Source: Streptomyces longwoodensis
Lineage (GTDB): Bacteria; Actinomycetota; Actinomycetes; Streptomycetales; Streptomycetaceae
Assembly: GCF_001514125.1 (NCBI RefSeq)
Contig: NZ_KQ948550.1
Location: 62,001-126,000 of the forward strand
Direction: 5' to 3'
Length of the DNA: 64,000 nucleotides
Within the stretch, counting starts at the first letter, position 1. Each line of letters starts with the position of its first letter. The notes beneath the pieces are model-generated. The model did no database searches. It worked only from the letters and a program-made list of their open reading frames with translations, and was not told the DNA's origin. Shown piece by piece: positions 28,241 to 44,809 of this stretch. Both the position numbers and the translations under genes were made by a program.

Positions 28241-28771
<531 letters not shown>

Positions 28772-28840: not shown

Positions 28841-30112
28841 TCACCCGGTGCTGCACACCGTCCTGGGGGCCGCCCCGCCGCCCGCGGTGTGCGCGGACCG
28901 CGCGTCCTGCACCCGCTGCACGTCCTGGAGGAGACCGGCGATCCCCGGGTCCTGGCCGGCGGCGACCCGGGCGAGGGTCAGCAGCACCGCCTCGTAGAAG
29001 GCGTCCCGGACGGCAGGTGCCATGACGTCCGAGGCGTCGAGGCAGCGGGGGCCCGCACCGAGCCGCCGCGCGATCTCGCGGGCGACCGGCCCGCCCTCGG
29101 CCGTGACCCGGCGGTTCGCCGAGAAGACCCCCGCCCCCGCCAGCTCGGCCCACTTGCGCTGCCCCTGGGCGGAGGCCAGCCGGCGGATCAGTGCCCGGGC
29201 CCGGGGACTGTCGCCGAACAGCGCCGCGAAGTCGCCGGTGACCTCGTGGGCCCGCACCGGGCCGCCCCCGGGCAGCAGCGGAGCGGAGTCCGTCATGCGC
29301 GCGCGACCCGCCTCGCCGCCGTAGAACGAGGGCGCGAAGGAACCCTGGTGCTCCAGGGTGCACCCGCCCCAGCCGTCGAACAGCAGCCCGTTGCCGTCCG
29401 GGTCGCCGCGGTGGTCGGTCAGCAGGGCGTGCGCGGCCGCGCCCCGGTCCTGCCGGAGCAGCCCGGCCCACACCTCCCACGCCTCGCGCACCGGCGCACT
29501 CCGCCACCAGCGCGTGCCGCCTGCGCCCCGGGCCCACTGCTCGTAGACGTGCGGACCCGCCCGCTGGAGCACGAGGTCCTCGATCCAGTCGGTGCCGGGC
29601 CAGCCCGACGCGCCGTCGTCGCCCATGCCGAGGCACCAGCTCCGCAGGGGCGCCGGTCCCCGGGCCGGCGCCTCGTCCTGCCGGTACCAGACGACGCTCT
29701 TCAGGTCCGCCTTGACCGGGACCCAGTACAGGTGGTCCGAGGGCGAGCCGGCCGACATCCAGGGCGCGCCGTACTCCTGCGGGTCGTAGAGGTCGTCCAG
29801 CGGCTCCAGCAGGTGCTGGTCGGCGTACTCGGCGAGCTCACCGATGCCCGGCATGATCACGATGTCCGGGGGCTCGCCCGCCTGCACCTTGGCGAGCAGC
29901 ACCTCCCGCTGGGCGGCGGTGCCCTGGTAGCGGAACGGGATGCCGAAGCCGCGCAGCAGGGTCTCGAACCGGTCCGCCTGCCCCGCCGTCCACGTCCCGA
30001 GGATCGTCACCGGCTCCTCCCGGTCGTGCCGCGCCCACAGCACCACCGTGGAACCGGCGGTGACCAGCAGCATCACCAGGGCGAGGACCAGTAGCTTGAA
30101 CCGCCGGGTCAC
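28841..30112 (-). CDS. Membrane-tethered extracellular solute-binding protein (family-1-like)
   Basis: 423-residue substrate-binding protein. The N-terminus RRFKLLVLALVMLL...STVVLWARH is a single helix with no lipobox cysteine and no clear cleavage site, so it probably stays membrane-anchored. The rest is a periplasmic-binding fold: VTILGTWT, QGTAAQREVLLAKVQAGEPPD, IVIMPGIGELAEY, YWVPVKADLKSVVWY. No permease or ATPase gene is nearby, so a sensor role is likelier than transport. The GTG at 30112 overlaps the stop of the membrane-protein gene (GTGA). In mycobacteria GlnH, a binding protein, sits in the pknG operon in the same way, although it belongs to another binding-protein family. Confidence 0.82.
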   Translation of the reverse strand: MTRRFKLLVLALVMLLVTAGSTVVLWARHDREEPVTILGTWTAGQADRFETLLRGFGIPFRYQGTAAQREVLLAKVQAGEPPDIVIMPGIGELAEYADQHLLEPLDDLYDPQEYGAPWMSAGSPSDHLYWVPVKADLKSVVWYRQDEAPARGPAPLRSWCLGMGDDGASGWPGTDWIEDLVLQRAGPHVYEQWARGAGGTRWWRSAPVREAWEVWAGLLRQDRGAAAHALLTDHRGDPDGNGLLFDGWGGCTLEHQGSFAPSFYGGEAGRARMTDSAPLLPGGGPVRAHEVTGDFAALFGDSPRARALIRRLASAQGQRKWAELAGAGVFSANRRVTAEGGPVAREIARRLGAGPRCLDASDVMAPAVRDAFYEAVLLTLARVAAGQDPGIAGLLQDVQRVQDARSAHTAGGGAAPRTVCSTG

Positions 30113-31227
30113 AGCCGCCTCCAGTAGTCCTTGTCGAGCCGCAGGCCCAGCCCCAGCGCGGGCAGTGCGACGGCCAGCAGGCTGCCGGTGAGGGTGGCCC
30201 GGTACACCCGGTCGGCCCAGGCGCCGTCGTCGGTGTCCTCCCGGACGTCCTCCGACCGCTTGGTGACGCGCTTCTGCGCATCGGCCGGTTCCGGGCCGAC
30301 GCGCCGGGACACCTCGGTGATCTGCCGCAACCCCCCGACGGCCCGGGTGAGTCCGTCCTCCGTCGCCGACACCGTCATCAGCGGCACCACCGCGAGCAGC
30401 ACGGTGAGGGCGAACGCCGCGAGCAGGTACGCGTTCCAGTCCCGGCCGCAGCGGTCGCGCAGCACGAACAGCGCCGAGAGCAGCGTCGACGCCAGTGCGG
30501 CCAGGGCGCATTCGGCGAGCCACCACACGCCGCGCTGCACCCCGCCCATGGCCGCCGTGGCCTCCGCGTGCCGCAACTGCACCCGTTGCAGGGCGTCCAG
30601 GCGGGGCACGAGCCCCACGCCCTCGCGGGTGAGCAGGGAGTGGGCCTCCTGGAGCTTCTGCTCGCGCATGAGGGGCTGGTCGCGGTAGAGGGAGGCGCCG
30701 AGGGTGAGCGAGTCGGTGTAGGTGGCGAGCAGGCCCTTGACGGTGCCGAGGTCCTGGTCCGTGCGGTCGGCGATCCGGGACAGGCCCTGGTCGGCGGCCG
30801 AGAGCTGGGACCGGTAGGTCTCGCCCGAGCCCGCGACCCCGATGAGGTTCCCGGCCACCAGCACGTGGACCTCCTGGTCGGCGCGCAGCGCCGCGAGCCG
30901 GGTGGCGGCCAGCCCCTGCACGGCCGGCGCCTCCCGGGCCGCGAGCGCGTCGGCGTTGCGCTGGACCTGCCGGCACGACAGGAACAGCGCGCTCGCCGCG
31001 ACGGTCGCGAGCAGCACCAGCACCAGCAGGTGCACCTCCAGCAGCCGCCGGGTCCGCCAGGGGCGCAGGAGGTCGCGCCAGAGGGCGGCGGGGGAGTACC
31101 GGCGTCGGAGCGCGGCGGGGGAGCGCCGCTTCGTGGAGGTGGCGCCCCCGAACGGCGTGCGACCCCCGCCCCGCCCGCGCCCGAAAGGTGTACGGCCCCC
31201 GCCCCGCCCGCGCCCGGTGGTCGTCAC
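30109..31227 (-). CDS. Multi-helix membrane protein with helical ectodomain (GlnX-like by context)
   Basis: 372 residues. The cytoplasmic N-terminus has two 12-residue repeats (GRGRGGGRTPFG). The first membrane helix is HLLVLVLLATVAASALF, followed by a ~170-residue helical ectodomain (QRNADALAAREAPAVQGLAA onward) like the ligand-binding part of chemoreceptors. Three more helices follow near WWLAECALAALAS, YLLAAFALTVLLAVVPL and SLLAVALPALGLGL. The GTG at 31227 overlaps the VWA gene stop and its own stop overlaps the binding-protein start, so expression is tightly coupled. Topology and place match GlnX of the mycobacterial PknG system; sequence homology is untested. Confidence 0.72.
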   Translation of the reverse strand: MTTTGRGRGGGRTPFGRGRGGGRTPFGGATSTKRRSPAALRRRYSPAALWRDLLRPWRTRRLLEVHLLVLVLLATVAASALFLSCRQVQRNADALAAREAPAVQGLAATRLAALRADQEVHVLVAGNLIGVAGSGETYRSQLSAADQGLSRIADRTDQDLGTVKGLLATYTDSLTLGASLYRDQPLMREQKLQEAHSLLTREGVGLVPRLDALQRVQLRHAEATAAMGGVQRGVWWLAECALAALASTLLSALFVLRDRCGRDWNAYLLAAFALTVLLAVVPLMTVSATEDGLTRAVGGLRQITEVSRRVGPEPADAQKRVTKRSEDVREDTDDGAWADRVYRATLTGSLLAVALPALGLGLRLDKDYWRRL

Positions 31228-32612
31228 CGCAGGGCCCTCCCGCACGCGATGCAGTAACGGGCCTCGCTCCCGGCCGGGTTGCCGCAGGCGCCGCAGTGCG
31301 GGCCCGGCCGGGACCCGGCGGTGTCGGGCAGCGGTGCGCCGGGACGGGACCCGGCGCGCAGGATCATCGGGCCGAGGGTGCCGGCGTCGACGGCGCGCGG
31401 CCGCACCCGTCCCGCGGACGCGTCCTCGATGTCGGCGACCGCCCGGATCTCGTCCAGCACCCAGTCCGTGCCGAACCGGGCCGCCAGCCGGGCGGCCTGC
31501 CCCAGGCAGTCCTCGGCGGTGGCCGGCCGGTCGTCGCGCAGGGCGGCGAGGCCGCGCCGCAGGGCATCGCGCATCCGGGCGGTGGCGTTGAGCTCGCGCA
31601 CGCTGTCGGCGCCCGCCGGGACGTGGGGCGGGGACTGCCCGGGCAGGTGCCAGCGGGCGGTGACCGCCGCGTGGAAGTCGCCGATGGAGACCAGGGCGAA
31701 CAGCAGCTCGGTCTCCAGCGGGTCGGCTCCGGAGTCGGCGACCAGGGTGAGCAGGTAGTCCCGCCGGCCCTGCTCCCACTGGTAGGTCGGGAAGCTCCAG
31801 CGGTGCGGCCGGCCGGGCTGGGGCAGACCGCCCAGGCGGTGCGGCCGGGGCGCCTTCTCACTGAGCGAGACCTGGCGCACGCACGGCCGCACGGTCACGT
31901 CGATCGGCAGCCGGGGCGTGTGCACCCGGCGCAGGCGCCCGATGGCGTCGGTGACCGCCCGGCCGAGTCCCTCGTCCACGAACTCGGCCGTCCCGTGCAG
32001 CCGTTCGGCGAGGGCCAGCAGCGGATCGGGGGACCAGTCCGTCCCCACGGCGAACACGTCACAGGTGAATTCACCGGCACACGCTTCCAGTTGCTCCTCC
32101 AGGCGGCTCTCGCCGGCCGCGCTGCTGCCGTCGGTGATCAGCACCAGGTGCCGTACGGACGCCGGCCGGCCGGCGAGCAGGGCGTGCGCCCTCGCCACCC
32201 AGGCGGCGTACCCGGCGGGGCGCGGCCCGTCCCGGTGCAGCGGCAGCGACCCCGTGACGAAGGCCGCCCGGCGCCGCTCGTCGTGGTCGGCGACGGCCCA
32301 CTCCTCACCCCCGCGCGGATAGCAGCGGACCGGCTCGGGGCCGCTGCCCAGCACGGCGAAGGAGATGCGGTCGGGCAGGGCGCGCAGCGCCGCGGGCAGG
32401 GCGTGCCGGACGGCCGCCCGGTTCTCCTCGGCGACGTCCACCGCGACGACCACGGCGAGCTGGACCGCGGGCAGGTCGGTGGGGGCGCCGTCGGCGGACA
32501 CGTCGACCCGCAGGTGCGCCTCGATCTTGGCGCTGCGGTGCGGGCGCAGGTCGCGGCCGAGGTCCACGTGGAGCCGGATGCCCGGCTGCGGCGGCCGGGT
32601 GAGGCTGCTCAT
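31224..32612 (-). CDS. VWA-domain protein with C-terminal zinc ribbon
   Basis: 462-residue cytosolic protein. A von Willebrand A domain covers about residues 40-220. The first metal-site strand reads VVVAVDVAEEN instead of DxSxS, so the MIDAS site is degenerate, while LVLITDGSS is kept. A beta-rich middle follows, then a helical segment (ATARMRDALRRGLAALRDD). The end is a zinc ribbon CGACGNPAG...YCIACG. I favour the ATG at 32612; a GTG at 32624 sits two bases after AAGGAG. It lies between the PknG-like kinase and the membrane protein and could act as a protein-protein adaptor or kinase substrate (inference). Confidence 0.8.
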   Translation of the reverse strand: MSSLTRPPQPGIRLHVDLGRDLRPHRSAKIEAHLRVDVSADGAPTDLPAVQLAVVVAVDVAEENRAAVRHALPAALRALPDRISFAVLGSGPEPVRCYPRGGEEWAVADHDERRRAAFVTGSLPLHRDGPRPAGYAAWVARAHALLAGRPASVRHLVLITDGSSAAGESRLEEQLEACAGEFTCDVFAVGTDWSPDPLLALAERLHGTAEFVDEGLGRAVTDAIGRLRRVHTPRLPIDVTVRPCVRQVSLSEKAPRPHRLGGLPQPGRPHRWSFPTYQWEQGRRDYLLTLVADSGADPLETELLFALVSIGDFHAAVTARWHLPGQSPPHVPAGADSVRELNATARMRDALRRGLAALRDDRPATAEDCLGQAARLAARFGTDWVLDEIRAVADIEDASAGRVRPRAVDAGTLGPMILRAGSRPGAPLPDTAGSRPGPHCGACGNPAGSEARYCIACGRALR

Positions 32613-32712
32613 GTCGTACGTCACCGCTCCTTCGCGCCGCCGTCCGGTCGGTCGTCGTCCGTTCCCCGCCGCCACGCCCCGAAGGGCCCGCGGCAGTCGC
32701 CGCGCCGTACGG

Positions 32713-35028
32713 TCAGAACACCGTCTGGGGCCGTACGGCGTGCAGGAGGTCCACCAAGTGCTCGTGCGCGGCGGGCTCCTCCTGGTGGTGGGCCGCCAAC
32801 CGTGCGTACAGGGACTCCAGTTGTTCGCGCAAGACCCTCTCGGGCGCGCTGAGGCGGCGCAGGGCGCGGGCGTCGAGCCGGCCGCGCCCGCCGCCCGGGC
32901 CCGCGGGGCCGGGACGGTCGCCGAGGTGGTGCACCGCGTCCAGCTTCCACTCGTGGAACTCGGTGCGCAGGCGCAGCGCCTCGTCCTCGGACAGGCTCGG
33001 CTCCACGGCGCCCGGTCTGCGCCCCACCAGGCCGGCCAGCTCGGCCAGCGCCGCGTCGACCTCGGCGGGTACGGGCAGCGGGTCGCCGTCGCCGGGCAGC
33101 CGGGCCGCGCGGATGCGCAGGGCGGCGATCCGCGCGACGGTGTGGTCCAGCGTGCCCGGCCGGACCCGGCCGAGCACGTCCACGGCCGCCCGCCGGTCAC
33201 GTGCGCGGAGCGCGAGCCTGGCCAGGCCCAGGGCGGCGCCGCCGTGCGCCGGATTGCGTGCGAACACCGCCTCGTACAGCTCCCGGGCGGTGGGCCCGGC
33301 CGCGTCGTCGCCGAGCCGCTCCGCGCAGTAGGCCAGCGCCAGCTTGGGGGCGTACTCGCCGGGGAGTTCGAGGTGGACCCGCGTGAAGTGGGCCTTGGCG
33401 TCGGCGACCGGGCGGGGGTCGCCGTCGAGTCCGGCGGCGCGCAGCGCGAGGAGGGCGCGGTGCCACTCCAGCCGCCACCGGCGCACGGCGGACGGGCCGG
33501 GGACGGAGTCCGCCGTGTCGAGTTCCTCCTGGGCCCGGTCCAGGTCCTGCCGGGTGTCGCGCCCCAGCAGGACGCGCACGTTGTGCAGACAGATCTCCAC
33601 CGACCGCGGTTTCTCGCCCTCCTGCCGCAGGAGCCGGCCCGGGTCGTAGCCGCTGCTCACCTCGAACCGCGCGGCCTGCGGGTCGCCCGGGTAGGGCCTG
33701 GGCACCGGCAGACAGGCGGCGATCTCGGTGGGGGTGGGGGCGCCGGGGTCGAGCGCCGGCGCCACGGGCGGCTCGTACCGGTCGCGGCGGGGCCGCCCCA
33801 GCCAGTGCTCGATGCCGGGCACCGTGCCGAGCCGGGCGCCCAGCAACCGGGTGGACGGCCGGAAGTAGTCGGAGGGCTCGGGCGGGTCGCTCTTGCCACG
33901 CAGCGCCCGTATCTCCCGCAGGGCGCCGCGCAGTTGGCCGAGCATCTCGCGGGCGTCGGTGAAGCGGCGGCCGGGGTCGGTCCGTACGGCGCGGTCGACG
34001 ACCCGCTCGAAGGACGCGGCGCCCAGTCCCGGGACCTCGGTGACGGCCCAGCGGGCGAGTTCGCGCAGGGTGACGCCGACGGTGTGCAGGTCGTGGGCGA
34101 CGGTGGGCACGGCCGTCGTCCCCGTCTCCGGCGCCATGTAGTCGGGCGTCACGTGCGCGGGCGGCTGGGTCTGGCCCTGCTCGCGCATGCCGCCGAGGTC
34201 GATGACCTTGACGCCGTCCCGGTGGTGCACGACGTTGGACGGCTTCATGTCCCCGTAGACGAAGACGCGTTCGCCGTCGGCGTGCAGGTGGACGAACGCT
34301 TCGAGGATCTGGCAGCCGTACGTCGCGACGTGCTCGATGTCGAGGACGGCCTCACCGCGGCGGACCTCCTCCACGACCGCCGCGAGGGTGCCGTCGCCGA
34401 CGTCGTCCATGACGATGTACCCGCCGGTGACCGTACCGCTGCCGTCGCCTCGGGCGACGAAGTCGCGGATCTGGACGATGCGGGGGTGACGGATGGCGAC
34501 GAGGTTGCGGCGCTCCACGTCGGCGAGCCGCACACCGTCGTGCTCGTACCGGTTGAGCAGCCCCTTGACGGCGACGACGTCCCCGAGGTGGGTGTCCTCG
34601 GCGAGGTAGACCCAGCCCTGGCCGCCGTGCGCGATGGGCCCCATGATCCGGTACTGGTCGCGCAGCAGGTCCCCCTCGGCGAGCTCGGGCCGGTACGAGT
34701 AGCGCTCGCCGCAGGCCGGGCAGAAACCCCGGCTCGGCACCGGGCCCTCGGTGTAGGGCGGGGCGAAGGTGATGCCGCAGTCGGCGGACGAGCAGCTCAT
34801 GCGGACGCGCAGCGGCGCCTCGGGACGCACGAGGCGTTCCGCGGCGGGACGCGGCTCCCGCTCGGGCAGCGCCAGCAGAGCGCGCGGGCCGTGCTCCCGC
34901 GGGTCGTCCGGCAGGGCGGGCAGCCCGGGCCCGTCCTGCGCGCGGCCGCACACGGCACAGTGGCCGCCGGCCAACAGGGTCCCGCCGCAGGGTGCTCCGC
35001 TGAAGCGGCGGTGCGGACAGGTCGTCAT
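32713..35028 (-). CDS. PknG-type serine/threonine protein kinase (rubredoxin-like, kinase, TPR)
   Basis: 771-residue cytosolic kinase with the full PknG plan. An N-terminal Cys-rich start (CPHRRFSG...CAVCG) is followed by a rubredoxin-like zinc module CSSADCG...FCPACGERYSY. The kinase domain has IAHGGQGWVYLAED, VAVKGLL (Lys), VYGDMKPSNV and VIDLGG, the PknG-style loop without the HRD arginine. A TPR region (ARELYEAVF, LELPGEYAPKLALAYCAE) ends in LLHAVRPQTVF, close to the extreme tail of mycobacterial PknG as I recall it. PknG controls glutamate/2-oxoglutarate metabolism by phosphorylating GarA/OdhI. ATG at 35028 with GGAGGGG nine bases upstream; an upstream in-frame ATG (35079) is weaker. Confidence 0.88.
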   Translation of the reverse strand: MTTCPHRRFSGAPCGGTLLAGGHCAVCGRAQDGPGLPALPDDPREHGPRALLALPEREPRPAAERLVRPEAPLRVRMSCSSADCGITFAPPYTEGPVPSRGFCPACGERYSYRPELAEGDLLRDQYRIMGPIAHGGQGWVYLAEDTHLGDVVAVKGLLNRYEHDGVRLADVERRNLVAIRHPRIVQIRDFVARGDGSGTVTGGYIVMDDVGDGTLAAVVEEVRRGEAVLDIEHVATYGCQILEAFVHLHADGERVFVYGDMKPSNVVHHRDGVKVIDLGGMREQGQTQPPAHVTPDYMAPETGTTAVPTVAHDLHTVGVTLRELARWAVTEVPGLGAASFERVVDRAVRTDPGRRFTDAREMLGQLRGALREIRALRGKSDPPEPSDYFRPSTRLLGARLGTVPGIEHWLGRPRRDRYEPPVAPALDPGAPTPTEIAACLPVPRPYPGDPQAARFEVSSGYDPGRLLRQEGEKPRSVEICLHNVRVLLGRDTRQDLDRAQEELDTADSVPGPSAVRRWRLEWHRALLALRAAGLDGDPRPVADAKAHFTRVHLELPGEYAPKLALAYCAERLGDDAAGPTARELYEAVFARNPAHGGAALGLARLALRARDRRAAVDVLGRVRPGTLDHTVARIAALRIRAARLPGDGDPLPVPAEVDAALAELAGLVGRRPGAVEPSLSEDEALRLRTEFHEWKLDAVHHLGDRPGPAGPGGGRGRLDARALRRLSAPERVLREQLESLYARLAAHHQEEPAAHEHLVDLLHAVRPQTVF

Positions 35029-35155
35029 CCTGGCGTGCCCCTCCCGGTCATCGGCCCCCTCCGGTTCCGTGTCCCGCACGGTCGTCCTCCTCCCCGGCCG
35101 GGCGGTGCGGGGGCGCCGGCGCCGTGGCGGGAGGTGGAGCGCAGGCCCGTCGGCA

Positions 35156-36634
35156 TCAACGCCCCCCGTGGCGGTCGAGGTCGGCGCGCAGCGTCCTGAT
35201 CAGGGCGCGCAGCCGGGCGAGTTGCCGGTGCGGGTCCCGCTCCTCGTCGATGCGGCGGCGGGTGACCCGGTGCCGCTCGGCGGTCTCGGCCACCGGGCCC
35301 AACGAGGCGCTGTCGACCACGTCCAGGCGGATCGACCGGCTCAGCTCCACGCGCTGGAGACGGTCGAGCAGCGCGTCCGCCCGGTGCAGGAGCGCGGGCC
35401 GCAGGAGCCGGTCGCAGGCCTCGTCCCAGCCCGGCCCGCCCTCGCGACGGAAGACGAGCAGCAGCCGGAAACCGACGGACCGCAGCCGTTGCAGGACGTC
35501 GATCAGGGCGCCCGGCTGCGGCTCCTCGTCGAGGCCGTCGACGAGGAGGGTGACGGGCCGGGCGGGTGGGTCACCGGCTGCCGGGACGGCCCGACCGGGT
35601 GCGGGGGCGTGACCGGCCGCCCGATCGGCCCGGCCGGGTGCGGGTGTACGACCGGCCGCCGGAGCGGCTCGGCCGGCTGTGTCCGTGCGACCGGTCGCCG
35701 GAGCGACCTGGCCGGCTGTGTCCGTGCGACCGGTCGCCGGAGCGGGCCGGGGCCCGGCGCCGCGGAGCCAGTCGTAGTACGCCAGGTACGCGCCGGCCGG
35801 GAAGGCGATCCGGCCCAGGGCGTGGTCGATGAGGTCCGGCACGCGGGCGCCGCCGCGGTGGACGACGTCGGCCCGGTGGGTGAGGTGGCGCAGCGAGCGT
35901 TCCTTGCCGCCGCCCGGGGGCACCACGGTGATCTTCACCGGGTCCTCGTCCGGGTGGTCGAACCACCGGGTCACCCGTGCCTCGAAGCCCCGGTCCCAGG
36001 CGTCGGGCCGGCTCAACTCCGCGACGTACGGCGACAGTCGGGCGATGCGGTCGACGGGGATCAGGTACGAGAAGGCGAGCCGGTTGTCCTCGGGGAGGAA
36101 GGCGCCGAGGTCGCCGCGCCAGCTGACGACGAGCCCGACGACGCGGACCGGCCGGTCCTCCCGCGGCCGGGTGCACACGGCCGCGCCGCTGAAGCCCTCG
36201 CGCACCACGTCCGCCTTGGTGACGGCGTCGAGCTGGACCAGCTCACCGCTGGCCCCGCCGATGCGCCCCCACAGGCTCATCCCCTCGTCGAAGCCGTCGG
36301 CATAGCCGGTCGCGTACACCTCCATGCCGCCCCACACCCCGGGGTCCAGCGGGGCGGGGCGCGCCTGGGGCCGCGGGCTGTCCAGGCGCAGTACGGCGAC
36401 GTCCTCGCCGTCCGCCCGTTCCGGCAGCCAGCCGCCGGGCAGGACGCGGGCGCGGACCGGGGCGAGCGCGCTGTTCTCGGCGAACTCGGCCCACAGCACG
36501 GCGTCCGGGCGGCCCACCACGTGCGCACAGGTCAGCGCCGTCCACTGGTCGACGAGCACACCGGCACCGCAGACCGGACCGTGCGCGTCGTCGCGCCGCA
36601 GCCGCAGTCTCCAGTCCGCACGTAACTCCCCCAT
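35156..36634 (-). CDS. Trypsin-like serine protease with long C-terminal extension, TTA codon 4
   Basis: 492 residues, no signal peptide, so cytosolic. Residues 1-~200 form a trypsin-like (S1B/Do-type) domain: GAGVLVDQWTALTCAHVVG (His), GEDVAVLRL (Asp) and VREGFSGAAVC (Ser in GFSGAAV), a complete triad. A spacer of 13-residue repeats (about 290-355) leads to a C-terminal helical/NTPase-like part with TLLVDGLDEEPQPGALIDVLQRL, reminiscent of STAND-type Walker B but without a P-loop. Codon 4 is TTA (36625-36623), so translation should need bldA tRNA. First gene of the kinase operon; it may cleave a partner when the pathway is triggered (inference). Confidence 0.82.
   Translation of the reverse strand: MGELRADWRLRLRRDDAHGPVCGAGVLVDQWTALTCAHVVGRPDAVLWAEFAENSALAPVRARVLPGGWLPERADGEDVAVLRLDSPRPQARPAPLDPGVWGGMEVYATGYADGFDEGMSLWGRIGGASGELVQLDAVTKADVVREGFSGAAVCTRPREDRPVRVVGLVVSWRGDLGAFLPEDNRLAFSYLIPVDRIARLSPYVAELSRPDAWDRGFEARVTRWFDHPDEDPVKITVVPPGGGKERSLRHLTHRADVVHRGGARVPDLIDHALGRIAFPAGAYLAYYDWLRGAGPRPAPATGRTDTAGQVAPATGRTDTAGRAAPAAGRTPAPGRADRAAGHAPAPGRAVPAAGDPPARPVTLLVDGLDEEPQPGALIDVLQRLRSVGFRLLLVFRREGGPGWDEACDRLLRPALLHRADALLDRLQRVELSRSIRLDVVDSASLGPVAETAERHRVTRRRIDEERDPHRQLARLRALIRTLRADLDRHGGR
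35570..35757 (-). repeat. 39-base tandem repeats coding for a 13-residue linker motif
   Basis: About five degenerate 39-base units inside the protease gene. Two neighbouring units share a 35-base block exactly (35671-35705 and 35710-35744). They encode versions of APATGRTDTAGRA, decaying into APAAGRTPAPGRA. Probably a flexible, length-variable linker. Confidence 0.8.
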
Positions 36635-38190: not shown

Positions 38191-39459
38191 TCAGCGCACC
38201 GCCGGGGTGAACTCCACCGGCAGGGACGTCAGTCCACGCATCCAGATCGACGGACGCCAGGTCAGCTCCTCCGGCTCGACGCCCAGCACGAGGTCGGGAA
38301 GGTGCTCCATCAGCGTCTCCACCGCGGTGCGTGCCATGACGTCCGCCAGCAACGGCGCCGGGTACGGGCAGCGGTGCTCGCCGTTGCTGAACGACAGGTG
38401 GGCGGAGTTCTCGGCGCCGACGTGCGACTCGGGCCAGATCTGCGGGTCGGTGTTGGCCGCCGCCAGACCCAGCACCACGCAGTCGCCCTCACGGATGAGC
38501 CGCCCGCCCAGCTGGGTGTCACGCACCGCCCAGCGGCCGATGAAGTTCTGGGTCGGCGTGTCCAGCCACAGCACCTCGTTGAGCGCGTCGCCGACGCTGA
38601 CCCGGCCGCCGGAGACGTTGACCGCGAACCGCTCGTCGGTCAGCAGCAGGCGCAAGGTGTTGCCGATCCAGTTGCCGGTGGGCTGCTGGGCCGCCGCGAT
38701 GACCGAGATCAGGTCCTGGACGACCTCCTCGTCGGTGAGGCCGGCCGGGTCCAGCAGCATCCGCGAGGTGACGTCGGGGCCGGGCCTGTCCCGCTTGTCC
38801 TTCACGAGCTGCATGATGCGCTCGCCGACCCGCCCGTAGGCGGCCACCGGGTCGTCGCCCTCACCGGCGTCCAGGGAGATCCGCAGGTCGTCGACGAGTC
38901 GCTCGGTGTCCGCGCCGCCCTGCTCCATGCCGCACATCCACAGCACCGCACGAGCCGGCAGGGCGTGGGCGTACCCGCTCATCAACTCGGCCTGCCCGCT
39001 GCCCGCGAAGCGGCCGATGAGCTGCTCGGCGATCAGCTGGCACTCACGGGCCAGCTCGAACTGGTCGACGCCCTCCAGCGCGTGCGTGATCACTCCCGCC
39101 CGGCGCTGGTGCTCGGCGCCCTCGGTGAACAGCACCGACGGCTGGTGGCCCACGAAGGGGAGCAGCGGCCAGTCCGGCGGGATGTGCGGCCACTGGTTCC
39201 AGCGCCGCGAGTCCCGCGCGAACAGCTCGTCGTGACTGGTGACGAACGACACCTCGGGGTAGCCCAGCACCAGCCAGGCCGGGATGTCGTTGTCCAGCAG
39301 CACGGGTGCGACCGCGCCGTGTTCGCGGCGCAGCGTCCGGTAGAGCTGGGAGGGCGTCTGCTGGTACTCCAGGCCGCCCAGGGGCACGGCCCGGGAGTGT
39401 GCGGGGCAGCCGGGCGGGGGAGTGGCGGCCCCCGACGGGGAGGCGGCGGTGTCGCTCAT
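38191..39459 (-). CDS. Conservon-associated cytochrome P450, CYP157-like (no ExxR arginine)
   Basis: 422-residue P450 at the end of the conservon. The heme loop LSFSNGEHRCPYPAP has the proximal cysteine. The K-helix reads NEVLWLDTP, so the arginine of the otherwise near-universal ExxR motif is tryptophan. The I-helix reads VIAAAQQPTGNW rather than (A/G)GxxT. Loss of ExxR is the known hallmark of the CYP157 family, which occurs next to conservons. The ATG at 39459 overlaps the stop of the GTPase gene (ATGA). Probably a structural or atypical heme protein working with the Cvn proteins (inference). Confidence 0.9.
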   Translation of the reverse strand: MSDTAASPSGAATPPPGCPAHSRAVPLGGLEYQQTPSQLYRTLRREHGAVAPVLLDNDIPAWLVLGYPEVSFVTSHDELFARDSRRWNQWPHIPPDWPLLPFVGHQPSVLFTEGAEHQRRAGVITHALEGVDQFELARECQLIAEQLIGRFAGSGQAELMSGYAHALPARAVLWMCGMEQGGADTERLVDDLRISLDAGEGDDPVAAYGRVGERIMQLVKDKRDRPGPDVTSRMLLDPAGLTDEEVVQDLISVIAAAQQPTGNWIGNTLRLLLTDERFAVNVSGGRVSVGDALNEVLWLDTPTQNFIGRWAVRDTQLGGRLIREGDCVVLGLAAANTDPQIWPESHVGAENSAHLSFSNGEHRCPYPAPLLADVMARTAVETLMEHLPDLVLGVEPEELTWRPSIWMRGLTSLPVEFTPAVR

Positions 39460-40073
39460 GGGGTGCCCTCCTGGGACAGTGCCAGTGCGTACAGGTGGTC
39501 CACCAGGCAGATGAGGACCTCCTTGCAGGACGACCTCAGCCGCGCGTCGCAGTCGATCATCGGCACGTGCTCGCCCAGGGCGAGCGACTGGCGGATCTCC
39601 TCCAGGGAGAAGCGGCGGTCGTCGCCGTCGAAGCGGTTGACCGCGACCACGAACGGCGTGCGGTGGTGCTCCAGCCGGTCGATCGCGTACCAGGAGTCCT
39701 CCATGCGGCGGGTGTCCACGAGGACCACGGCGCCGAGCGTGCCCGAGAACAGGCGGTCCCACAGGAACCAGAACCGCTCCTGCCCCGGTGCGCCGAACAG
39801 GTAGAGCACCATGTGCTGGTTGAGGCTGATGCGCCCGAAGTCGAAGGCGACGGTGGTGGTGGTCTTCTGCTCGACGCCCGTCGTCTCGTCGACGCCCCGT
39901 CCCGCCTGCGTCATCACCTCCTCGGTGTTCAGCGGCCGTATCTCGCTGACCGAGCGCACCAGGGTGGTCTTGCCGACGCCGAAGCCGCCCACGACGACGA
40001 TCTTCAGGCCGGTCTCGGCGGCATCGGCCAGCGGTGTGCGCTGCAGCGGCAGCTCAGAGGTTACGGAGCCCAT
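39456..40073 (-). CDS. cvnD: Conservon GTPase CvnD
   Basis: 205-residue small Ras/MglA-like GTPase. P-loop VVGGFGVGKTTLV, switch region TTTTVAFDFGRI, FGAPGQERFWFLW (the DxxG equivalent APGQ) and VNRFDGDD (NKxD equivalent). It is the output switch of the four-protein conservon, working with the roadblock protein CvnB at the membrane-associated complex (known from S. coelicolor). Its start overlaps the end of cvnC by 20 bases. Confidence 0.93.
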   Translation of the reverse strand: MGSVTSELPLQRTPLADAAETGLKIVVVGGFGVGKTTLVRSVSEIRPLNTEEVMTQAGRGVDETTGVEQKTTTTVAFDFGRISLNQHMVLYLFGAPGQERFWFLWDRLFSGTLGAVVLVDTRRMEDSWYAIDRLEHHRTPFVVAVNRFDGDDRRFSLEEIRQSLALGEHVPMIDCDARLRSSCKEVLICLVDHLYALALSQEGTP

Positions 40074-40410
40074 GGAGGACCTCCTGGAGCAGTGCGGTTT
40101 CGGGGAGGCCCGCGACGGATGCGGCGGCGCGGGGATGACGGGCGCTTACCTTGCCCATGTCGTGCAGGTCGCCGAGCAGGATCCGTACCACGGTGACGGG
40201 CAGCGCCAGTTCCGCCGAGATCTCGACGACCGCGGTGGGGTGCCGGCACAGCTCCAGGATGCGGACGTGCTCCGACTGCATGCCCTGGGTGGGCTCGCTC
40301 TCGCTGACGACCAGGGTCACCAGGTCGAACGAGTCGTCGGCCTCGCTGCGCCCACCCGTGACCATGTACAGCCGGTCGGGATCACCGACGTCCACGGGTT
40401 TGCGGATCAC
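40054..40410 (-). CDS. cvnC: Conservon DUF742 protein CvnC
   Basis: 118-residue DUF742 protein: DRLYMVTGGRSE, FDLVTLV, QSEHVRILELCRHPTAVVEI and LPVTVVRILLGDLHDMGKV, a winged-helix-like core. Required with the other Cvn proteins, biochemical role unclear. Overlaps cvnB by four bases (ATGA) and cvnD by 20. Confidence 0.92.
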   Translation of the reverse strand: MIRKPVDVGDPDRLYMVTGGRSEADDSFDLVTLVVSESEPTQGMQSEHVRILELCRHPTAVVEISAELALPVTVVRILLGDLHDMGKVSARHPRAAASVAGLPETALLQEVLHGLRNL

Positions 40411-40826
40411 GCGGTGGCACCCCTGCCGGCGGGGGTGCGCGGCTCGGCCCGCAGGTGGTCGCCGATCTGCTCGACCAGCTCGGTCATCTGGTGGCCCACC
40501 ACCCCCGGGTCGGCGCTCTCCTCGGCCACGACGGCGAGGTGCGCGCCCTCGCCGGCCTCCACGATGAACAGCAGGCCGCCGTGGAACTCGGTCATCGAGT
40601 GCCGCACCCCGCCGGTGCCGTCACCGAACTCCACCGAGGCGCCCTGCGACAGGGCCTGGATGCCGGAGCAGATGGCCGCCAGCTGGTCGGCCTGGTCGAG
40701 CGTCAGGTGCGGCGTCCAGCACAGCTTCAGTCCGTCCCGCGACAGGACCAGGGCGTGGCGGGTGCCCGGCGTGCGCTCCAAGAGGTTCGTCAGCAGCCAA
40801 GTCAGGCTGGTGTCAGTGGTCTCCAT
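40407..40826 (-). CDS. cvnB: Conservon roadblock/LC7 protein CvnB
   Basis: 139-residue roadblock/LC7 protein: TSLTWLLTNLLERTPGTRHALVLSRDGLKLC and MTEFHGGLLFIVEAGEGAHLAVVAEE. Roadblock proteins regulate MglA-like GTPases, here CvnD. I chose the ATG at 40826, where family similarity starts, although no clear ribosome binding site precedes it; a TTG at 40880 would add 18 residues. The 130-base gap to cvnA suggests an internal promoter or processing. Confidence 0.9.
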   Translation of the reverse strand: METTDTSLTWLLTNLLERTPGTRHALVLSRDGLKLCWTPHLTLDQADQLAAICSGIQALSQGASVEFGDGTGGVRHSMTEFHGGLLFIVEAGEGAHLAVVAEESADPGVVGHQMTELVEQIGDHLRAEPRTPAGRGATA

Positions 40827-40955
40827 GGTGGGTGGGGCCGGGCGCGGACCGGTCAGGGCCCACCCGGCCCGTACCTCCAATCAGGCGAGGTGGGGCAACA
40901 GGTGCAGGAGTGGTGGCCGGACGGGAGCGCCCGCGAAGGCCGGGTCGGGGAGGGG

Positions 40956-42701
40956 CTACTCGTCGTGCGGGGCCGGCCGCGGGTCCTCGGTGCCGGACGC
41001 CGCGCCGTGCCGGCCGCGGTGGAAGGCGCCGAACCGGCTGCCGGCGTCACGCGCCGGACCCGGCGCCGGCTGCGTGCCGGACGGGGCGGCGTCCGGCCGC
41101 TGCCGTTCGCGCTCCGCCTCGGCCATGGTGCGGCCCGGGGCGCGCACGGGCAGACCCCCCGGGGTGGCCGCCCGTCCGCCGGCCGCGCCGACGGGGCGGG
41201 CGGGAGCGGTGTCCGCGTCGGGTGTGCGGGTGCGCACCGGCAGGGGCTCGGCGGCCGCGGCCACCGGTTCCGGCACGGCCACCGGTTCCGGCACGGCCAC
41301 CGGCGCCGGCCCCGAGTCCTGGTCGCGCCGGGACCGCTCGGCCACGACCGGCTCGCGCTGCTGGGCCACGAGCTGCGGCGGCAGGAGCACCACGACGCCG
41401 GTGCCGCCGCGCGAGGAAGGACGGTAGTTGACGCTGATGCCGTACTTGACGGCGAGCCGTCCCACCACCGCCAGGCCCAGCCGGGTGCCCTGCAGCGAGG
41501 CCAGGTCGGTGACCTTGCCGGACACGGCCTCCTCCGCACGGCGCATGGCCGCGTCGGACATCTTCAGTCCGCTGTCCTCGATGGTGACGACGAGGCCGGC
41601 GCTGCGCTCCTCCACATAGACGTGGACCTCGTCGATGGGCGGCGAGAAGTTGGCGGCGTTGTCCATGAGTTCGGCCAGCAGGTGCATCACCCCTTCGGCG
41701 GCGAAGCCGGAGAGGGCGGCCTTGCTGGAGTTGTGCAGGCGCACCCGCCGGTAGGCGGCGATCCGGCCCACGGCACCGCGCAGGATGCTCTCCACCACGA
41801 TCGGCTTGTTCCACACCCGGCTGGAGCGCCCGCCCATCAGCAGGGCGAGCCGGTCGGTCATCAGCCCCAGCTGCGAGGTGCTGTGGTCCAGGCGCAGCAG
41901 GTCACCGAAGACTTCCCCGCCGTGCCGGTCCTGCATGTCCCGCAGGTCGGCGAGCATGCTCACGGTCTTGGCCTGCACGCGGCTGAGGGCCTTGGCGGAC
42001 GCGGCCTGCGCGGCAGCGGAACGCCGTTCGCTGTAGGCGAGTTCCCGCACGAACCACTCGGCCGGATCACGCAGCAGCCCGCTGCGCGGCCACTCGAACC
42101 GGGTCAGCACGGTGTCGGCGGAGCTGCCCTCCCGCAGCAGCGCCACCGCCGCCGGGAGGGTCTGCGTGGTCAGGCGCTCCAACTCGGCACTGCCCTGTGC
42201 CAGTTCCTCGCGCAGCGCCCGCAGTTCACCCTCGGCCCCGGTGGCGCGCCGGTGCGCCGCGGCCACCTCGGTGACGAACACCTCCGCCAGCTGGCGCAGA
42301 TGAGGGTCGGACGGCGCGCTCGCGTGCGCCAGTGCGTCGGCGGGCCGCGCGCCGCCCTTGATCTGCCGCACCAGGCCGGGCAGCGTGGCGTTGACCAACT
42401 GGGACAGCTCCGCGCCCCGTTGCATCCAGTGGTTACGGGCCGTCTCCAGCTCTCCGCCGCGCGAGGCGGCCTCCCGGCGTGCCCGGCGCAGCGACCGGGC
42501 CGTCACGGCGACCACGACCGCCAGGCACCCCCACGCGACGGCCGCGGTCCCTGCCACCCAGCCCCGCGCCCCCGCCGGGGCGACGACGACGGCCACCGCA
42601 CCCCCCACGGCGGTCACGAGCAGAGCGGCGGGGAACGCGACCGGCAAGGAGCGCGCCCCCTTCACGCTCCGGCGCTGGCGGGGGCGAGCAGGCACTGGCA
42701 T
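40956..42701 (-). CDS. cvnA: Conservon sensor histidine-kinase-like protein CvnA
   Basis: 581-residue nitrate-sensor-like kinase. Two membrane helices lie at about residues 20-65 (LPVAFPAALLVTAVGGAVAV and VAGTAAVAWGCLAVVVAVTA). A cytoplasmic coiled coil follows, then an H-box-like LRLDHSTSQLGLMTDRL and a GHKL ATPase domain (ELMDNAANFSPP, EDSGLKM, GLAVVGRLA). The C-terminal ~110 residues are a disordered Pro/Arg tail with VAVPEP repeats (three 18-base copies at 41259-41310). First gene of the conservon; activates the CvnB-CvnD switch on an unknown signal. ATG at 42701. Confidence 0.92.
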   Translation of the reverse strand: MPVPARPRQRRSVKGARSLPVAFPAALLVTAVGGAVAVVVAPAGARGWVAGTAAVAWGCLAVVVAVTARSLRRARREAASRGGELETARNHWMQRGAELSQLVNATLPGLVRQIKGGARPADALAHASAPSDPHLRQLAEVFVTEVAAAHRRATGAEGELRALREELAQGSAELERLTTQTLPAAVALLREGSSADTVLTRFEWPRSGLLRDPAEWFVRELAYSERRSAAAQAASAKALSRVQAKTVSMLADLRDMQDRHGGEVFGDLLRLDHSTSQLGLMTDRLALLMGGRSSRVWNKPIVVESILRGAVGRIAAYRRVRLHNSSKAALSGFAAEGVMHLLAELMDNAANFSPPIDEVHVYVEERSAGLVVTIEDSGLKMSDAAMRRAEEAVSGKVTDLASLQGTRLGLAVVGRLAVKYGISVNYRPSSRGGTGVVVLLPPQLVAQQREPVVAERSRRDQDSGPAPVAVPEPVAVPEPVAAAAEPLPVRTRTPDADTAPARPVGAAGGRAATPGGLPVRAPGRTMAEAERERQRPDAAPSGTQPAPGPARDAGSRFGAFHRGRHGAASGTEDPRPAPHDE

Positions 42702-43221
42702 TCCGCGGTCCCTCGGTCCTCGAGAACAGGAGTCGTGGTGACGACCGGACGTCGTCGGCGACCCGGAGGGCACCGGGCGACACCCGTCACCCCTCCGGAT
42801 CAAGCACGCCGCTCATGCTAGCCACGCGTCCCCGTCCGCATCCCGGCCGAAGGGCCCGGCCCCGTCACGGGTTCACTTCGTCGCGAAACGATCTCACTGA
42901 CACCGGCATGTGACAGGCGCGCGTGCCCGACCATGACCGTCGTGAAGCCGCAAAGAAGCCCATACCGCCCGAAGCGGGGGATCCACGAGGGGCGGTGACC
43001 GACCGAACGGGGCCCGTCTGACGCGCATTTCCGGTCAACCGGCCGCCCTCACCCGCCCGGAACCGGACCGGGGAATCCGCACACTCCCGGCGAAGCGCCC
43101 CCCGGCACACCCGCCGCCGTGTCCGAGCCGGACCGGGAAACCGGGGTGCCCGACCGGTGATGCGCGGAACACCTCCGCAACACCGGCTCAATGCTCACCA
43201 GTTGCTCACAACCCTGGGCGG
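42702..43221. other. 520-base region upstream of cvnA without a recognisable gene
   Basis: Frames here are arginine/proline-rich with no ribosome binding site, so I call no gene. The cvnA promoter must lie in it. TGTCACATGCCGGTGTCA (42915-42898 on the minus strand) contains two TGTCA half-sites and lies in a slightly AT-richer patch, the best regulatory candidate. Confidence 0.4.
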
Positions 43222-43279: not shown

Positions 43280-44809
43280 TCAGATGTCCCGAAAGATCTC
43301 GATCTGCGCCCCGATCGAGTTCAGGCGCTCGGCGAGGTCCTCGTACCCCCGGTTGATGACGTAGACGTTGCGCAGCACCGACGTGCCCTCCGCCGCCATC
43401 ATCGCGAGCAGCACGACCACCGCCGGGCGCAGGGCCGGCGGGCACATCATCTCGGCGGCGCGCCAGCGGGTCGGGCCCTCGACCAGCACCCGGTGCGGGT
43501 CGAGGAGCTGGAGCCGGCCGCCGAGGCGGTTGAGGTCGGTCAGGTAGATCGCGCGGTTGTCGTAGACCCAGTCGTGGATGAGGGTCTGGCCCTGCGCGGT
43601 GGCCGCGATGGCCGCGAAGAACGGGACGTTGTCGATGTTCAGGCCGGGGAACGGCATCGGGTGGATCTTGTCGATCGGCGCCTCCAGCTTGGAGGGGCGG
43701 ACCGTCAGGTCGACCAGGCGGGTACGGCCGTTGTCGGCGACGTACTCGGGCGTGCGGTCGTGGTCGAGGCCCATCTCCTCCAGCACCGCGAGCTCGATCT
43801 CCAGGAACTCGATCGGCACCCGGCGCACCGTCAGCTCCGACTCGGTCACCACCGCGGCGGCCACCAGGCTCATCGCCTCGACCGGGTCCTCGGAGGGGGA
43901 GTAGTCCACGTCCACGTCGATCCGCGGCACGCCGTGCACGGTGAGCGTGGTCGTGCCGATGCCCTCGACCTCGACGCCCAGCGCCTCCAGGAAGAAGCAC
44001 AGGTCCTGGACCATGTAGTTGGAGGAGGCGTTGCGGATGACGGTCACGCCGTCGTGGCGGGCCGCGGCGAGCAGCGCGTTCTCGGTGACGGTGTCCCCGC
44101 GCTCGGTCAGCACGATGGGACGGTCCGGGCGGACGGAGCGGTCGACGACGGCGTGGTACTGGCCCTCGGTCGCCGCCACCTCCAGGCCGAACCGGCGCAG
44201 CGCGATCATGTGCGGCTCGATGGTCCGCGTGCCCAGGTCGCAGCCGCCGGCGTAGGGGAGCATGAAGCGGTCCATGCGGTGCAGCAGCGGGCCGAGGAAC
44301 ATGATGATGGACCGGGTGCGCACGGCGGCCTCGGCGTCGATGGCCGCCAGGTTCAGGTCGGCCGGCGGCACGATCTCCAGGTCCACGCCGTCGCTGATCC
44401 AACGGGTGCGCACGCCGATGGAGTTGAGGACCTCCAGCAGGCGGTAGACCTCCTCGATGCGCGCCACCCGGCGCAGCACCGTGCGCCCGGTGTTCAGCAG
44501 GGAGGCGCACAGCAGGGCCACGCAGGCGTTCTTGCTGGTCTTGACGTCGATGGCGCCGGACAGCCGGCGCCCACCGACCACGCGCAGGTGCATCGGACCG
44601 GCGTAGCCCAGTGAGACGATCTCGCTGTCGAGGGCCTCACCGATTCGGGCGATCATCTCAAGGCTGATGTTCTGGTTGCCGCGCTCGATGCGGTTGACGG
44701 CGCTCTGGCTGGTGCCGAGCGCCTCGGCGAGCTGCGTCTGCGTCCAGCCCCGGTGCTGACGGGCGTCACGGATGAGCTTGCCGATGCGTACGAGGTAATC
44801 GTCTGACAT
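43280..44809 (-). CDS. murA2: HTH-fused UDP-N-acetylglucosamine 1-carboxyvinyltransferase (MurA2-like)
   Basis: 509 residues. Residues 1-~70 are an XRE-type helix-turn-helix (WTQTQLAEALGTSQSAVNRIERG). Residues ~75-509 are a full EPT/MurA domain that adds enolpyruvate to UDP-GlcNAc, the first step of peptidoglycan synthesis. The substrate Lys-Asn pair is in VKTSKNAC, and the active-site loop YAGGCDLGTR keeps the fosfomycin-target cysteine. The DNA-binding fusion suggests autoregulation. A perfect dyad lies 13 bases upstream of the ATG, no Shine-Dalgarno is seen, and TAACCT at -13 fits a leaderless transcript. From memory, this is MurA2 (SCO5998). Confidence 0.92.
   Translation of the reverse strand: MSDDYLVRIGKLIRDARQHRGWTQTQLAEALGTSQSAVNRIERGNQNISLEMIARIGEALDSEIVSLGYAGPMHLRVVGGRRLSGAIDVKTSKNACVALLCASLLNTGRTVLRRVARIEEVYRLLEVLNSIGVRTRWISDGVDLEIVPPADLNLAAIDAEAAVRTRSIIMFLGPLLHRMDRFMLPYAGGCDLGTRTIEPHMIALRRFGLEVAATEGQYHAVVDRSVRPDRPIVLTERGDTVTENALLAAARHDGVTVIRNASSNYMVQDLCFFLEALGVEVEGIGTTTLTVHGVPRIDVDVDYSPSEDPVEAMSLVAAAVVTESELTVRRVPIEFLEIELAVLEEMGLDHDRTPEYVADNGRTRLVDLTVRPSKLEAPIDKIHPMPFPGLNIDNVPFFAAIAATAQGQTLIHDWVYDNRAIYLTDLNRLGGRLQLLDPHRVLVEGPTRWRAAEMMCPPALRPAVVVLLAMMAAEGTSVLRNVYVINRGYEDLAERLNSIGAQIEIFRDI

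Follow-up and report, generated by a model that had tools for sequence, protein, structure and literature searches.

We describe a putative second PknG-type transmembrane signalling system in Streptomyces longwoodensis, encoded by five minus-strand genes at positions 28841-36634 of the stretch of DNA analyzed here (64,000 nucleotides, positions 62,001 to 126,000 of contig NZ_KQ948550.1, assembly GCF_001514125.1; hereafter, the window), which belongs to a high-GC genome of 8.36 Mb. In the direction of transcription, the genes encode a trypsin-like protein, a PknG-type kinase, a VWA protein, a GlnX-like membrane protein and a solute-binding protein (SBP). We put at about 0.7 the probability that this operon constitutes a system paralogous to the genome's own canonical pknG operon, with the protease most likely acting as a second output. 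Homology to canonical components, a conserved gene order, gene fusions that join neighboring products and intact active-site residues in both the kinase and the protease are the observations on which this reading is built. A first-pass annotation, made from the sequence of the window, had placed the five genes at these coordinates, and our analysis agrees with it; the four-base overlaps it had reported among three genes are those between the VWA and membrane protein genes and between the membrane protein and SBP genes. With gene starts set by script, a start codon for the membrane protein gene at -4 with respect to the VWA stop is available in all 16 loci inspected, the start nearest to -4 having been picked at each locus. 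Promoter and terminator scans found 0 and 0 elements, respectively, the promoter scan covering the sigma-70 consensus only.

The kinase gene (32713..35028, minus strand) encodes a protein of 771 residues, or of 788 if an alternative GTG start at 35079 is used, composed of an N-terminal Cys-rich segment, a rubredoxin-like module, a kinase domain, a TPR domain and a C-terminal VRPQTVF tail. Its classification as PknG-type, already proposed in the first-pass annotation, is sustained by the Pfam PknG_TPR domain (PF16918; residues 431-639, 33112..33738, minus strand; E 1.8e-28, 99.8 bits against a cut-off of 27), by a Pkinase match (E 4.7e-20, 72.5 bits) and by its nearest solved structure by sequence, which is that of PknG (2pzi, E 5.6e-62). 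The canonical PknG of the same genome scores 291 bits with PknG_TPR and 105 bits with PknG_rubred, a model on which the window kinase reaches 21.3 bits (cut-off 28.5). The Cys residues of the rubredoxin-like motif (Cys79, Cys84, Cys103 and Cys106; 34711..34794, minus strand) are present in 74-75 of 82 aligned kinases and gapped in the rest; corynebacterial PknG lacks the rubredoxin-like domain (PMC8546545). The missing HRD arginine (VYGDMKPSN) and the VRPxTxF-type tail were both correctly recognized in the first-pass annotation. The 82-row count left out canonical and other PknG kinases, took identical rows once and, like the protease triad count below, refers to the loci gathered before divergent loci were added from the 150-genome survey. 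Of these kinases, 80 keep all five catalytic residues (Lys, Glu, Asp, Asn and Asp) and 79 the DxK Lys, with two rows gapped, and the residue before the catalytic Asp is G, C or S in 80, the pattern of a non-RD kinase, again with two rows gapped. The VRPxT-type tail retains its R in 71 rows, its P in 75 and its T in 62 (with S in another 5), the gapped rows numbering 6, 6 and 15.

A family search identified two PknG_TPR loci in the genome. The second is the canonical operon (locus L003), with transcription order glnX, glnH, a gene encoding a 459-residue helical protein (HEL), pknG, PP2C, VWA and FHA. Its GlnX scores 506 bits with the NCBIfam GlnX model (cut-off 250), its GlnH belongs to SBP_bac_3, its PknG carries TPR and rubredoxin domains above cut-off, its phosphatase matches PP2C_2, and VWA and FHA families are likewise assigned; profile searches assigned no family to HEL. 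The kinase, VWA and membrane protein of the window operon have homologues in the canonical one. The window operon contains neither PP2C nor FHA, carries its SBP gene last rather than second, employs an SBP of the SBP_bac_1/8 rather than the SBP_bac_3 family and includes a protease. The first-pass annotation had stated that the cluster mirrors mycobacterial pknG-glnX-glnH, and this likeness can now be attributed to homology, as seen in the PknG_TPR match of the kinase and in the profile alignment of the membrane protein given below. With the mycobacterial and corynebacterial PknG-GlnX-GlnH system it shares a PknG-type kinase with rubredoxin-like Cys residues and TPR, a four-helix GlnX homologue, a membrane-tethered SBP and a co-directional gene cluster (PMC6069109, PMC9769921, PMC8546545), and it differs from that system in its sugar-type SBP, a short second ectodomain, a protease gene upstream of the kinase gene, a Ser/Thr-poor kinase N-terminus and a separate kinase clade. 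Conservation of the pknG operon in Actinobacteria, with Streptomyces named, has been reported (PMC6069109), and GlnH-GlnX-PknG is the proposed signalling model of the canonical system (PMC6069109, PMC9769921, PMC8546545). The linkage of a Ser/Thr kinase to an SBP is also common to MSMEG_1200, SGR_4432 and SCO1468, given as examples beyond PknG of single-chain kinase-SBP proteins or SBP-linked kinases (PMC6069109), and a kinase-SBP protein has been listed for S. coelicolor (PMC1262709). As a separate observation, two GlnX-GlnH-like pairs flank one PknG-type kinase in two loci of family f18 (L184 and L188), possibly representing one kinase with two sensor pairs, and a single such pair lies next to the kinase in two other f18 loci (L183 and L185).

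The membrane protein (30109..31227, minus strand; 372 residues) presents four hydrophobic segments in a hydropathy scan, which delimit a first ectodomain of ~150 residues and a second of ~58 residues, versus ~163 residues for the second ectodomain of the canonical GlnX of the same genome; the published sizes of the GlnX ectodomains are 156 and 153 residues (PMC9769921). It matches no Pfam family above cut-off. The NCBIfam GlnX model (NF058618) is matched by 13 of the 14 aligned membrane proteins, including that of the window (best E 1.9e-21), and profile-profile alignment with hhalign relates the family to canonical GlnX with a probability of 96.4% (E 1.4e-9, 192 columns) over ectodomain 1 and the second and third transmembrane (TM) segments; a control alignment of the membrane protein and SBP profiles yields 7.9%. 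By these sequence comparisons the membrane protein is a true but remote GlnX homologue, which upholds the GlnX-like label of the first-pass annotation. The multi-helix architecture it had described is likewise present, and the helical nature it attributed to the ectodomain is predicted through the GlnX match alone.

The SBP (28841..30112, minus strand; 423 residues; SBP_bac_1 E 4e-10) belongs to the SBP_bac_1/8 family and has a predicted N-terminal TM anchor, a hydrophobic segment that contains no lipobox Cys. The first-pass annotation correctly set it apart from GlnH, an SBP_bac_3 protein. In its AlphaFold2 model (mean predicted local distance difference test, pLDDT, 68.9), the top Foldseek matches are glucose-, galactose-, xylo-oligosaccharide- and chito-oligosaccharide-binding proteins with ~12-18% identity, and family and fold together suggest that the ligand is most likely a sugar or oligosaccharide. 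Among 91 aligned SBPs, 37 have a TM anchor, 18 a lipobox, 3 are fused and 2 have a weak segment; these counts are incomplete because the regular expression used failed to class 31 N-termini, and they tally as TM one SBP (locus L138) that the frame scan finds fused to the membrane protein. Tethering thus takes three forms (TM segment, lipobox and fusion), and the fact that it is achieved in different ways suggests that it matters. The absence of transporter partners claimed in the first-pass annotation also agrees with our data: a scan of 96 downstream genes, taken from 32 loci, matched 71 Pfam families, and the 25 commonest of these include no ABC transporter family. The scan relied on simple-script gene calls, left out genes longer than 2.4 kb and covered downstream genes only, and a family outside those 25 could account for no more than 1 of the 96 genes. 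With no linked permease or ATPase among the frequent downstream families, we rejected the SBP as part of an ABC importer.

The VWA protein (31224..32624, minus strand; 466 residues; VWA_3 E 5.3e-36) ends in a zinc-ribbon-like CxxC...CxxC motif, to which Zn_Ribbon_1 gives a weak match (0.015), and matches the VWA protein of the canonical operon with 74 bits. The first-pass annotation had considered it an addition to the PknG system, an idea we rejected because the canonical operon of the same genome contains a VWA gene between PP2C and FHA; pknG is also accompanied by VWA in loci of other families (L186, L187 and L188). The DxSxS metal-site motif is kept in 64 of 104 aligned VWA rows, lost in 37 and gapped in 3. 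These rows take in the canonical VWA and a second copy of that of the window, and for three loci (L035, L036 and L137) they represent the canonical neighbor, which scored higher.

The trypsin-like protein (35156..36634, minus strand; 492 residues; Trypsin_2 E 1.9e-10) comprises a trypsin domain (Pfam residues 23-155) with a His38/Asp78/Ser149 triad, followed by a second domain of alpha/beta type, a linker of low complexity and a helical C-terminus. Its AlphaFold2 model (pLDDT 80.9) displays the trypsin fold, the second alpha/beta domain and the helical end, and a Foldseek search with the whole model returned only trypsin-fold entries among the best 50 matches listed, all of them on the trypsin part. 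Over 78 rows, identical ones being counted once and two loci (L102 and L103) left out, the triad His is present in 70, the Asp in 70 and the Ser in 69, with 6 rows gapped at each site. The protease gene lies directly upstream of the kinase gene, in the slot that HEL occupies in the canonical operon, and the HEL profile matches the protease C-terminus above the HMMER inclusion threshold in 32 of 87 rows (best E 3e-21), the match being not significant for the window protease (E 9.3) and for its near clade. The first-pass annotation regarded the protease as added, a view that has to be completed by the shared slot and by those HEL-like C-termini. At E 1e-25, a class-wide search with the protease profile gave hits in 16 of 345 genomes, with 15 of 19 matches ending by model position 262 and thus mostly confined to the trypsin domain. 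Two further features of this family were observed. The linker of the window protease contains a low-complexity repeat of ~54 residues (35570-35731, minus strand; pLDDT <50) that is absent from the other 17 aligned rows, and locus L221 (G107:C1:2470000-2489900) holds a second protease-profile match (106 bits) in a stretch unmatched by the other four profiles.

The conservation of the cluster was analyzed through 78 SBP-profile loci, kept from the best 80 of at least 476 confirmed relatives, in which the SBP closest to that of the window is from S. galbus (92% identity). All four partners are found in the same order and strand in 55 of the 61 loci with at least 7.4 kb of upstream sequence, a regularity that goes beyond chance in loci collected through the SBP alone; of the remaining six, three have the kinase and membrane genes only, one has no protease, one is frameshifted with no VWA seen and one has no partner. 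Among the 17 loci with shorter upstream sequence, 4 are complete. Most of the 78 loci (75) are from Streptomyces, and the others are from Solihabitans (L175) and Saccharothrix (L177), both complete, and Amycolatopsis (L182), with kinase and membrane genes; a further locus, L100, from a genome of another family, carries a complete cluster. Broken frames, due to decay or sequencing error, were seen for the protease and kinase in L115, which is counted as complete above, and for the protease and SBP in L160.

In a survey of 150 Streptomyces genomes, the SBP profile matches 63 at E 1e-60. In seven of these the locus is cut by contig ends, and the other 56 loci, for which 5.8 kb or more of upstream sequence is available, all contain the kinase and membrane genes, 49 contain the protease and 43 contain all four partners. 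The 13 incomplete loci consist of six in which protease and kinase form one frame and there is no VWA and seven in which iterated profiles detect kinase and membrane genes only, and gene-order flags at G047 and G105 correspond to loci with the VWA gene of the canonical operon upstream. Using the kinase as query, 18 of the 150 genomes, including that of the window, are matched at E 1e-110, an undercount with respect to the 63 of the SBP survey; in 16 of these 18 loci all five genes occur in one order and strand, and in the other two the contig ends within the kinase gene, with the protease gene in front. A class-wide kinase survey at E 1e-70 gave matches in 10 of 246 genomes, nine of which are from the same genus, and found the cluster in the genome of the window and in G366 only, the rest being of canonical type. 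The locus sets overlap (G142:C5 and L106 are one example), so counts from the 61-locus and 56-locus sets, and from the 143-locus set used below, are not independent. The first-pass annotation had proposed such a survey, and the gene order extends well beyond this strain in the SBP and kinase sets alike (55/61, 43/56 and 16/18), which is contrary to the outcome it had named as refuting its reading, a gene order limited to this strain.

Neighboring products of the cluster are repeatedly joined in a single open frame. Protease and kinase share one frame in 6 of the 63 genomes, with Trypsin_2, Pkinase and PknG_TPR detected by Pfam in the two checked (L228 and L259), and membrane protein and SBP share one frame in five loci (L032, L138, L166, L181 and L245) of the 143 scanned in overlapping sets, frames being taken from stop to stop; the fusion in L032 spans 781 residues from the overlapping start. 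The sampled kinases of the system (52 and 50 rows) form one clade in each of two trees, which comprise 68 and 61 rows, with support values of 99 and 98 in the Shimodaira-Hasegawa-like approximate likelihood ratio test (SH-aLRT), and the branch of canonical PknG is weak (66 and 13). Both trees are quick IQ-TREE runs with SH-aLRT support only and with several long branches flagged. This separate clade beside canonical PknG is the reason why the kinase is classed as a PknG-type paralogue and not as PknG. In the second tree, the protease-kinase fusion arose once (support 100) and the losses of protease and VWA require several changes (4 and 3), a pattern according to which the five-gene form is likely ancestral and the paralogy old. 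The cluster lies directly downstream of canonical pknG-PP2C-VWA-FHA in L035 and L036, and directly downstream of canonical PP2C (cut), VWA and FHA in S. aculeolatus (L137). Despite this adjacency, we rejected recent duplication of the canonical operon as the origin of the cluster, given an old and separate kinase clade that includes Pseudonocardiaceae.

By analogy with GlnH-GlnX-PknG, a signalling route through these components may be proposed. The SBP, tethered at the outer face of the membrane, would bind a sugar or oligosaccharide as its most likely solute and dock on the ectodomain of the GlnX-like four-helix protein; through the membrane, the change would probably reach the TPR domain of the kinase in the cytoplasm and alter the activity of that kinase. 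The VWA protein may serve as a scaffold. The protease, placed by conserved gene order and by fusions that in one lineage put it on the same polypeptide as the kinase, would probably act in the same complex, where phosphorylation or kinase binding could gate its cleavage of cytoplasmic targets; it might instead be a regulator or a scaffold. The nutrient ligand and the proteolytic output suggested in the first-pass annotation are putative. Because the sensor resembles a sugar-binding protein and the kinase is accompanied by, and sometimes fused to, a protease, the operon probably represents a sensing pathway distinct from the canonical one, with an output of its own.

Several points weigh against this interpretation, the support for which is wholly computational. 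The window membrane protein scores 21.4 bits (E 1.2e-4) with the NCBIfam GlnX model, far under its cut-off, and the ligand class depends on that moderate SBP model and on those 12-18% identities to sugar binders. The VWA protein of the window has lost the DxSxS motif, which reads DVA, and locus L140 shows none of the partners of the SBP in 9.9 kb of available upstream sequence. Neither protease nor VWA is indispensable, since they are absent beside 7 and 13 of the 56 testable clusters, respectively. Triad residues are lost in three protease rows (L108, L146 and L175), so that a non-catalytic role of the protease is possible. Lastly, the kinase N-terminus does not contain the Ser/Thr-rich segment of canonical PknG, and GarA-type docking may therefore not apply. 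The second kinase could share the canonical output, phosphorylating GarA/OdhI-type FHA proteins and connecting a sugar input to the control of the TCA cycle, with the protease as a structural replacement of HEL. We deem this unlikely. It is in keeping with a kinase of the same family with an intact active site, with an operon that, lacking FHA and PP2C genes, might make use of the canonical ones, with the adjacency to canonical genes in L035, L036 and S. aculeolatus, and with the three proteases in which triad residues are missing; the triad is, however, retained in most rows, and the N-terminal segment of the window kinase has 4 Ser/Thr in 76 residues versus 32 in 144 for the canonical PknG of the same genome (a comparison of composition only), and, past residue 2, none of the alignment columns for the first 75 residues reaches 80% Ser/Thr. 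All known autophosphorylation sites of PknG fall in the N-terminal region (PMC8546545), and FHA-substrate docking through such a segment is doubtful here.

A conflict or defence system akin to the trypsin/VWA/STAND systems of multicellular bacteria, in which the SBP-GlnX pair would sense damage to the envelope or a molecule of foreign origin and the protease would carry out a response that is defensive or self-directed, seems to us distinctly improbable. Trypsin-like proteases, VWA and inactive STAND domains do recur in conflict systems, and the available excerpts of PMC7159879 describe VWA/trypsin/iSTAND and kinase/PP2C/VWA systems and make no mention of PknG. The cluster resembles VMAP/iSTAND and GAP1-N2 systems in combining VWA and trypsin, and GAP1-N2 also in its kinase/PP2C/VWA combination, but differs from them in having five genes with no MoxR or GAP1 GTPase and in its GlnX-SBP sensor pair (PMC7159879). 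Its patchy distribution (63/150), its variable downstream genes and the second protease domain, modeled as alpha/beta and with degenerate P-loop-like motifs visible by eye, would also suit such a role. Yet the only NACHT-like (NPHP3_N) match to that domain has E 0.15 and occurs in 2 of 15 rows, PADLOC matches are obtained for the kinase only, all with kinase-type models, and none for the other four proteins, and the deep conservation of five genes in one order, a sensor module among them, rather resembles what is seen in signalling operons. No AAA+ or MoxR match was found among the five proteins with Pfam at E 1, and membership in a MoxR/VWA conflict system was rejected on these grounds. Less probable still is an ordinary sugar-uptake receptor that works with a shared ABC importer of MsiK type from another locus, uptake being merely regulated by the kinase. 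The SBP_bac_1 family and the sugar-binder fold fit this account, and SBPs with no linked importer occur in actinobacteria, but five loci have the SBP and the GlnX-like protein fused, no permease appears among the frequent families of the downstream genes in 32 loci, and the kinase and GlnX-like genes accompany the SBP in all 56 testable loci.

Other genes flank the operon in the window. A P450 gene (36816-38042, plus strand) lies divergently upstream of the protease gene, and a gene encoding a DUF6299 protein (28244-28771, plus strand; E 4.2e-49) converges on the SBP gene. Genes for an ATP_bind_1/Ras-like GTPase, a DUF742 protein, a Roadblock/LC7 protein and a HATPase_c protein follow one another at 39456-42803 (minus strand), a set that we take to be conservon-like. 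A long open reading frame at 38191-39762 looks P450-like by eye and has no Pfam match at E 1e-5, and an EPSP-synthase-family enzyme with an N-terminal helix-turn-helix domain, a pairing that seemed unusual, is encoded at 43280-44809 (minus strand).

In the one open-access library searched, from which most subscription journals are absent, we found no description of an operon that combines a PknG-type kinase with a protease and a sugar-type SBP, and the claim of the first-pass annotation that the system is undescribed holds to that extent. The activating signals of bacterial Ser/Thr kinases have been called an outstanding question (PMC6069109). PknG-GlnX-GlnH offers one example for which a ligand path has been proposed, and an old paralogue of it is present, according to the SBP profile, in 63 of 150 Streptomyces genomes. 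The SBP-membrane protein fusions provide independent evidence for the proposed contact between SBP and GlnX, and the presence of a different SBP family in an old paralogue makes the GlnH-GlnX-PknG model testable by input swapping. The protease-kinase fusions, in turn, point to a proteolytic branch, for which the same literature search gave no precedent. We advance tentatively, and at less than even odds, the full scheme in which an extracellular solute would control a PknG-type kinase that gates a dedicated trypsin-like protease of the cytoplasm in the same complex, making regulated proteolysis an output of a bacterial Ser/Thr kinase.

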